In this document: one piece after another, positions 17,455 through 18,174 of the stretch
How positions within the stretch are numbered: position 1 is the first letter of the stretch
How the letters are laid out: each line of letters begins with the position of its first letter
Assembly (NCBI GenBank): GCA_018262985.1
Contig: JADFDI010000003.1
Location: forward strand, 347,577 to 411,576
DNA: 64,000 nucleotides
Origin: Spirochaetota bacterium
Lineage (GTDB): Bacteria > Spirochaetota > Spirochaetia > Treponematales > UBA12059
Direction of reading: 5' to 3'
Program-made: the position numbers and the translations under genes
Notes under the pieces: model-generated
Told to the model about the DNA's origin: nothing
Database searches by the model: none
Seen by the model: the letters and a program-made list of their open reading frames with translations, nothing else

Positions 17455-17525
17455 TCCCCGGTTGTGTAATGGTAGCACGGCAGACTCTGGATCTGCTTGT
17501 GGGGGTTCAAATCCTCCCTGGGGAA
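17455..17525 (+). tRNA. tRNA-Gln (anticodon CUG)
   Basis: The acceptor stem is TCCCCGG with CTGGGGA, with discriminator A at 17525. The anticodon loop CTCTGGA, closed by GCAGA/TCTGC, presents CUG. The T-arm contains GGTTCAAAT. CCA is not encoded. It is the first gene of a two-tRNA transcript. Confidence 0.95.
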
Positions 17526-17561: not shown

Positions 17562-17633
17562 GGCCCCTTCGTCTATCGGTTAGGACACAAGATTCTCAAT
17601 CTTGGAAGAGGAGTTCGACTCTCCTAGGGGCTA
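17562..17633 (+). tRNA. tRNA-Glu (anticodon CUC)
   Basis: The acceptor arms are GGCCCCT and AGGGGCT, with a G1:U72 wobble at the end. The anticodon loop TTCTCAA within CAAGA/TCTTG presents CUC. The T-arm has GTTCGACT. CCA is not encoded. The last 17-20 bases of this gene recur in direct and inverted orientation downstream. Confidence 0.95.
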
Positions 17634-17644
17634 ACAGAAAATCC

Positions 17645-17680
17645 AAGAGACCGGCCGCAAGGCCGGTCTCTTGCTTTATA
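17645..17680 (+). terminator. Terminator 1 after tRNA-Glu
   Basis: A 12-bp perfect stem (17645-17656 with 17661-17672) closes a GCAA loop and is followed by TGCTTTAT. It terminates the tRNA transcript. The same hairpin, with compensated base changes, recurs 198 and 396 bases downstream. Confidence 0.85.
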
Positions 17681-17687
17681 GGCAGGC

Positions 17688-17831
17688 GCCCCTAGGAGAG
17701 TCGAACTGCGGAAGCCCCGTCCCGAGCGCATAGCGAGGGCGAGGCGCATGGAAGCGCCGAGAGGGGCTGGAGCCGGTCGAGGGGAGCGAGCAGGAAGCTC
17801 GCGACCCGAGACTCGACTCTCCTAGGGGCTA
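17688..17831 (+). ncRNA. Candidate structured element, copy 1, closed by the tRNA-Glu end hairpin
   Basis: The inverted tRNA end (17688-17707) can pair over about 17 bp with the direct copy at 17815-17831. Inside are an outer stem AGCCCC (17713-17718) with GGGGCT (17763-17768), an inner hairpin GGCGC-ATGGAA-GCGCC (17743-17758) and a GCGAGC-AGGAA-GCTCGC hairpin. Copy 2 has the same layout with different, still complementary stem bases. Whether it is transcribed or acts as DNA is unknown; no terminator-free path from the tRNA promoter exists. Confidence 0.5.
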
Positions 17832-17842
17832 ACAACGAAATC

Positions 17843-17870
17843 CAAAGACCGGCCGATAGGCCGGTCTTTG
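17843..17870 (+). terminator. Terminator 2 in the tRNA-Glu-derived array
   Basis: A perfect 12-bp CAAAGACCGGCC/GGCCGGTCTTTG stem with a GATA loop is followed by CTTTATT. It lies 198 bp from terminator 1. Confidence 0.8.
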
Positions 17871-17884
17871 CTTTATTGGCAGGC

Positions 17885-18028
17885 GCCCCTAGGAGAGTCG
17901 AACTCCGGAGTCGCCGTCGCGACCGATGAGGGAGCGCGAGGCCCATGGATGGGCCGAGAGGCGACGCAGGCGGTTTTCGGGAGCGGGCACGAAGCCCGCT
18001 CCCGAAAACTCGACTCTCCTAGGGGCTA
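17885..18028 (+). ncRNA. Candidate structured element, copy 2
   Basis: The inverted tRNA end at 17885-17904 pairs with 18012-18028. The outer stem is GTCGCC (17910-17915) with GGCGAC (17960-17965). The inner hairpin is GGCCC-ATGGAT-GGGCC (17940-17955), followed by the unpaired GAGA that copy 1 also has. The third hairpin is longer than in copy 1: a 15-bp stem around an ACGAA loop ending near 18009. Confidence 0.5.
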
Positions 18029-18039
18029 TCAAACAAACC

Positions 18040-18068
18040 CGAACGACCGGCCTTCGGCCGGTCGTTCG
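18040..18068. terminator. Terminator 3, bidirectional
   Basis: A 13-bp perfect stem CGAACGACCGGCC/GGCCGGTCGTTCG has a TTC loop. On the minus strand it is followed by GGTTTGTTTG, so it can also end the oxidoreductase transcript arriving from 18175. Confidence 0.75.
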
Positions 18069-18174
18069 CATTTCCGGTGGCGTCCCCTGGGAGAGCGCGC
18101 CTTCGGCGCTTTCGGTGCGGAAACGATCATCGTGCGCCCGCGGCCGCGCGTCCTCATCGAAGTCCGGAGCGCAG

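Follow-up and report, generated by a model that had tools for sequence, protein, structure and literature searches.

The tRNA-Glu(CTC) gene in the 64,000-nucleotide stretch of spirochaete DNA analysed here (the window) is followed by two tandem copies of a hairpin whose core is conserved at the 3' ends of tRNA and tmRNA genes across a Treponema-like order, whose arms match the local gene, and whose 3' junction lies at C56. The structure of the arrays relative to the chromosome is that expected for insertion of units at, or their removal from, the T-loop, and statistically the stems keep their Watson-Crick pairing, G-U being hardly favoured over A-C. The hairpin has the look of an insertion or recombination element, so far undescribed. 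We give about equal measures of belief and doubt to a reading of the locus as two array units of a hairpin element that has no genes and is matched to its target, with units going in and out at the T-loop. A first-pass annotation had noticed the array from its letters alone; that observation is confirmed as correct, the array being one member of a large family.

The array behind tRNA-Glu(CTC)

All features of the window locus lie on the plus strand. A tRNA-Gln gene (17455-17525) adjoins tRNA-Glu(CTC) (17562-17633; ARAGORN, Rfam RF00005), the host gene of the array. Each unit of about 198 bp consists of the tRNA end (positions 56-73), a terminator, an inverted tRNA end and a core of about 100-105 nt, and a last copy of positions 56-73 closes the array. 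The first unit begins inside the ARAGORN call with copy A, tRNA-Glu positions 56-73 themselves (17616-17633), followed in the spacer 3' of the tRNA by the terminator-like hairpin T1 (17644-17673, inverted repeat I18). The inverted tRNA 3' end B1 (17688-17707, complementary to the tRNA at 20 of 20 positions, I4) provides the 5' arm of hairpin 1, and the 3' arm is A'1 (17813-17831), a direct copy of tRNA positions 55-73. Between them lies core 1 (17708-17812), with P2, which carries P3 and P4, then P5, and G-A rich internal loops in between; it is supported by its fold (z -7.4), by covariation in the family and by a covariance-model match at G000:C16:365270-365400 (96.7 bits).

The second unit repeats this layout, with the terminator-like hairpin T2 (17843-17870, I23), the 5' arm B2 (17885-17906, an inverted tRNA 3' end matching at 22 of 22 positions, I2), core 2 (17907-18009; fold z -10.8; covariance-model match G000:C16:365467-365597, 93.3 bits) and the 3' arm A'2 (18010-18028), again a direct copy of positions 55-73. 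In both units, B, core and A' form one hairpin. The architecture is common to the two cores; most stem sequences have been replaced, and the arms are still those of the tRNA. The direct copies begin at 17813 and 18010, with spacings of 198 and 197. A third terminator-like hairpin, T3 (18035-18073, I12), precedes B3 (18082-18095), a degenerate terminal inverted copy that marks the right end of the array; in the sister genome G001 an intact counterpart of 14 nt stands before the same flank. The P5 of window unit 2 (17973-18009) is a perfect palindrome, as are P5 or inner hairpins at loci L041 and L052.

The tandem tRNA-Glu 3' ends, their inverted copies with a degenerate third, and the terminators were thus all confirmed. 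Exact matches of 17-22 nt inside 400 nt are far above chance expectation. With a score of 12 or more required within 300 nt of a tRNA, an inverted copy of the gene's own 3' end stands behind 12 of 44 tRNAs in the window genome and 11 of 43 in a sister genome, against 15 of 1802 and 13 of 1718 for mismatched tails. The possibility of an assembly artefact, raised with the original observation, is unlikely, since such arrays also occur in genomes assembled as single contigs (G034, G027, G358 and G419).

A common core at tRNA and tmRNA 3' ends

The first-pass annotation had proposed searching relatives with BLAST and a covariance model, and the search places the unit at many other tRNA ends. A BLAST search of 30 relatives with the locus as query located the core at further tRNAs, with arms that are the inverted and direct ends of the local tRNA at Gly, Val, Met, Leu, Pro, Thr, Ala and Glu-TTC loci. 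A covariance model of the hairpin was built from 16 copies; 88% of cells in its alignment are paired, 26 of 44 pairs show double changes, and the covariation score is 0.466, compared with 0.14 after shuffling and 0.05-0.08 when the structure is slid along. The model has matches in 22 of 23 genomes of the family and in 143 of 244 sampled genomes of the order (55 of 82 genera), the other 101 being without; among genomes sampled from the phylum it also matches 11 that belong to the class but not to the order, and 2 from outside the class. An exact core pattern run against 84,980 species returned 16 matches, all in spirochaete MAGs; the same exact pattern, run against 2.9 million viral contigs to look for phage carriage, returned none.

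We read 242 distinct copies. For 198 of these the same strand carries a tRNA upstream, usually at a distance of about 53 nt, and the unit is always 3' of the tRNA and co-oriented with it. Compared with a library of 142 tails of other amino acids, the arms fit the local tRNA better than any of these tails in 187 of the 198, and 30 isoacceptors are represented. Of the other 44 copies, 16 directly follow either tmRNA or the truncated end of a tRNA or tmRNA gene; the rest are later array units or copies at contig edges. ARAGORN places tmRNA just upstream at five loci (L198, L024, L135, L141 and L124). The arrays behind a truncated tRNA or tmRNA 3' half (such as L170, L245, L216, L033 and L126) are apparently the far ends of large islands that split the same genes and carried the arrays off.

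The two ends of the unit differ in precision. Across 188 copies, identity of the 3' arm to the tRNA jumps from 5% at position 55 to 96% at C56, stays at 94-99% over 57-65, lies between 81 and 92% over 66-73, drops to 57-68% at 74-78 and is at background further on. As the model needs the T-stem part of the arms, the identity at 57-65 is partly ascertained, whereas that at 66-73 is not. In the 74 copies without a recognisable spacer copy, identity is 94% (57-65) and 76% (66-73), against 62% and 35% for a null of unrelated tRNAs. Over 57-65 B agrees with the tRNA at about 95%, over 66-73 at only about half of sites, its match frequently stopping at 64-66 or at 71-72; something other than pairing with B must therefore preserve the acceptor part of A'. 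C56 is a fixed junction, and the opposite junction is variable.

That an element targeting the tRNA 3' end had grown there, as first suggested, is now well supported by the 30 isoacceptors and tmRNA with units always 3' of the gene, by arms that fit the local gene, by the tandem arrays, and by occupied and empty sites in sister genomes. The other initial suggestion, tandem duplication of tRNA end, terminator and hairpin, holds for some arrays and fails as the whole story, because the core is common to different tRNAs. The statement that no named family has this layout stands within what was searched. Rfam, applied to the window and 20 loci, gave no match of the element above a gathering score, the only families recognised being neighbouring tRNA, tmRNA and SRP RNA and a single fragment of a group II intron; no description of the layout was found in the literature, where subscription journals were mostly outside our coverage, so that an earlier description is possible.

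Within a genome, cores that belong to different tRNAs mostly share about 65% identity, 87% at most, and are no closer to each other than cores of different genomes; core identities within genomes revealed no recent jump between unlike tRNAs. Those near-identical copies that were observed belong to serine tRNAs sharing a T-arm, such as Ser-cga and Ser-gga of G032. The Ser-gct element is common to several genera and hence old, and G000 (the window genome) and G002 differ there by a compensatory pair. Retargeting to unlike tRNAs must have happened often over time, and the element is not simply a recent transposon.

Other repeats occur in the same loci. The loci behind tRNA-Pro(GGG) (L071) and tRNA-Cys (L060), and the sister loci L298 and L296, carry another type of unit, whose arms follow the same logic and whose core is different: inverted acceptor end, TTTTTCAAGGAAATTCATTGTATG, a small hairpin, TGTAA and a direct acceptor end, repeated in tandem with a unit of about 135 nt. 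A distinct REP-like repeat (ggtcgc..gcgacc..acaatccattcc..ccgaaagcggcgc..) is concentrated in or beside arrays at L021, L043, L063 and L066, and at L301 it is inserted inside the A' of a Thr-cgt element.

Fold and proposed movement

RNA would accept G-U pairs far more readily than A-C. In the core stems G-U outnumbers A-C by only 1.6-fold (152 to 98); T-stems of the tRNAs in the same loci give 86 to 4, or 21-fold (Fisher P about 1e-11), acceptor-stem counts having been excluded for register errors. The core stems thus lack the tolerance of G-U far above A-C that marks RNA, which argues for a folded DNA strand rather than RNA. The strands are also unequal: where pairs of the model are mismatched, the tRNA-sense strand mostly shows G-A (734, against 46 C-U), and with DNA energies that strand is the better folder in 226 of 231 copies. 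Both observations are in keeping with folded single-stranded DNA.

These counts bear directly on the idea that B, core and A' form a functional RNA: read-through from the tRNA promoter would transcribe it, and its arms would serve as a switch, decoy or processing signal by pairing with the tRNA 3' half or by mimicking it. The strong conservation of structure with covariation, the compensatory pair between the orthologous Ser-gct elements of G000 and G002, the NGGA motifs in the loops, an orientation always the same as that of the tRNA, and the fact that B could pair with the tRNA 3' half would all suit such an RNA. Besides the low share of G-U, it is opposed by the conservation of the acceptor part of A', although that part is often unpaired with B, by the position of the unit, usually downstream of a terminator with too little space for a promoter of its own, and by its absence from so many genomes of the order. 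We regard a functional RNA as rather unlikely. The loops of P4 and P5 (for example window 17743-17748 and 17792-17796) read ANGGAN or AGGAN and resemble CsrA-binding motifs; this is probably a coincidence if the fold acts as DNA, and the idea of a CsrA sponge was dropped because the stems do not evolve as RNA does.

Template-switch repair of stems also yields Watson-Crick pairs (PMC8794818), and one may ask whether a mobile element is needed at all: tRNA end and terminator hairpin would make a natural quasi-palindrome, template switching during replication would generate the inverted copies and perfect the stems, and slippage and homologous recombination would add and remove units. Hairpins can arise and persist by template switching (PMC8794818), copying at the DNA level fits the low G-U, and the perfect palindromes of window unit 2, L041 and L052 are the pattern expected from template switching during replication. 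Core-less palindromes in which B is fused to A', at Ser-gct in G001 and Ser-gga in G013, point the same way. Template switching would, however, close the internal loops, which are open in most copies, and it leaves inexplicable why the same core with its G-A loops occurs at dozens of unrelated tRNAs and at tmRNA, and why the C56 junction is fixed at all of them. An origin without a mobile element is therefore unlikely in our view, if worth bearing in mind.

Sister genomes differ in their occupancy in a manner that suits a mobile, target-matched hairpin. In a serine tRNA operon, Ser-tga is occupied in G018 and empty in G006 and G016; in G018 the former downstream sequence tcggacgctttcgggcgc now lies behind A', and 27 bp from C56 are duplicated. 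Within genus g9, G017 carries an element at Ser-tga where G015 and G010 have an empty site, the duplication being essentially the tRNA end alone. Conversely, Ser-cga is empty in G018 and occupied in G006, and Gly-tcc is occupied in G000, not in G001. Leu-gag and one Met locus have an extra tRNA-proximal unit in G001 compared with G000; for Leu-gag, precise loss of the unit in G000 is possible, since G002 has it also. Pro-cgg has two recognisable units, whose order in G000 is opposite to that in G001 and G002. Deletion or duplication by ordinary recombination at short direct repeats could lie behind several of these differences. The core-less scars mentioned above are L285 (Ser-gct) and L319 (Ser-gga), in which B and A' form a short palindrome; that at L285 apparently arose by slippage between GAACCGA repeats.

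The reading that we prefer has the T-loop as the point of insertion and the hairpin as the structure that recombines or inserts. The tRNA-sense strand would fold while single-stranded, and a recombinase, a transposase or the replication machinery would join the 3' end of the core to C56 in the T-loop. B may arise when the target strand is copied back onto itself, a step that would account for both the variable length of B and its fit to any tRNA; alternatively, template switching may keep B matched. Positions 56-73 would be regenerated at every event, each insertion or excision making a copy the working 3' end of the tRNA; A' would for this reason stay tRNA-like through its acceptor part. Our account of how arms come to fit each new tRNA is inference, and so would be any benefit to the host; given the patchy distribution, selfish persistence is the simplest view. 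Tentatively, and with somewhat more doubt than confidence, we propose a new minimal kind of mobile DNA: a gene-less folded-strand cassette that enters the T-loop of any tRNA or tmRNA gene and builds its recombination arms by copying the target, every copy thus suiting its host gene and a working tRNA 3' end being regenerated.

The element seems worth attention on either outcome. Hundreds of copies sit at essential genes throughout a whole bacterial order, among whose members are many spirochaetes both free-living and host-associated; none of the described families that were searched covers these copies. If the units insert and excise, they would be the smallest site-specific cassettes known to us and the first with target-written arms, and they would connect folded-DNA recombination of the integron type with integration at tRNA genes. 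Should the units be immobile, they remain a striking example of a hairpin that is conserved at the level of DNA and serves some function at tRNA genes.

Candidate enzymes and known systems

The linked recombinase that had been suggested was not found at the locus: intI is absent among the ORFs listed around the window array, and no gene lies in any unit examined (135-300 bp, the longest spacings included). A reverse transcriptase (PF00078) is missing from the window genome and from 20 of 23 family genomes, and a model based on this enzyme, with the element as a SINE-like or group II derived retroelement, was dropped for that reason. IntI-like integrases occur in 10 of 23 family genomes, including the element-free G009, and are lacking in several element-rich ones; IntI was dropped as a necessary enzyme because its occurrence is uncorrelated with the elements. 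The window genome itself has an IntI-like gene on contig C13 (L263:6926-8239, minus strand), whose 437-aa product scores above the TIGR02249 cut-off, with no recognisable cassette array and no cassette-like repeats around it. XerC/D-type recombinases are possible enzymes.

A conventional tyrosine-integrase system could take two forms: an integron whose secondary attI sites are tRNA genes, or a satellite that exploits the T-loop site of tRNA-targeting islands. A tRNA gene with a displaced 3' fragment is the island signature, the T-loop is one crossover subsite (PMC4383910), and IntI-like genes are present in the group. A classical island, on the other hand, pairs one attP with one tRNA, so that a common core with arms for 30 isoacceptors is unexpected, and the gene-less units, the failure of IntI to track the elements, the lack of a GTTRRRY box and the junction sequence described below also speak against this explanation, which we consider very improbable.

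A close parallel is the integron attC site, a bottom-strand hairpin conserved in structure rather than in sequence, with inverted arms that match the site (PMC2727003). Like attC and cassette arrays such as the V. cholerae VCR (PMC2727003), the element is a structure-conserved imperfect hairpin with strand asymmetry; its arms repeat the insertion site in inverted and in direct orientation, its arrays lie beside the primary site, and unit order varies among relatives. Unlike attC, it has no RYYYAAC...GTTRRRY boxes; its arms are tRNA positions 57-73, and the junction falls between T55 and C56 (GTT|C), not G|TT. Its units are gene-less, with arms of 12-18 bp that differ for each tRNA, and its primary site is any tRNA or tmRNA gene, with no linked integrase or attI.

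Islands in tRNA and tmRNA genes restore the gene, displace a fragment and can use a T-loop subsite (PMC4383910). The islands catalogued by Islander share with the element the target from T-loop to 3' end of tRNA and tmRNA genes, and tandem arrays exist (PMC4383910); as with such islands, the original flank lies behind the displaced 3' fragment in the Ser-tga and Ser-cga comparisons. In contrast to islands, which are not called below 2 kb (PMC4383910), the units measure 135-300 bp and contain no integrase or other gene; they also have an extra inverted copy, and one core family serves 30 isoacceptors and tmRNA in place of a single-tRNA attP. Template-switch hairpins (PMC8794818) show the same perfect stems and multi-base compensatory changes at the DNA level, but they have no core common to different loci and no fixed junction.

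The element is short, gene-less, palindromic and dispersed, and in this it is like REP/BIME, MITEs and the Rickettsia palindromic elements. The terminal repeats of those families are their own and independent of the target, whereas the arms here are target sequence. The element resembles attC sites and tRNA-targeting islands, but it fails defining features of both.
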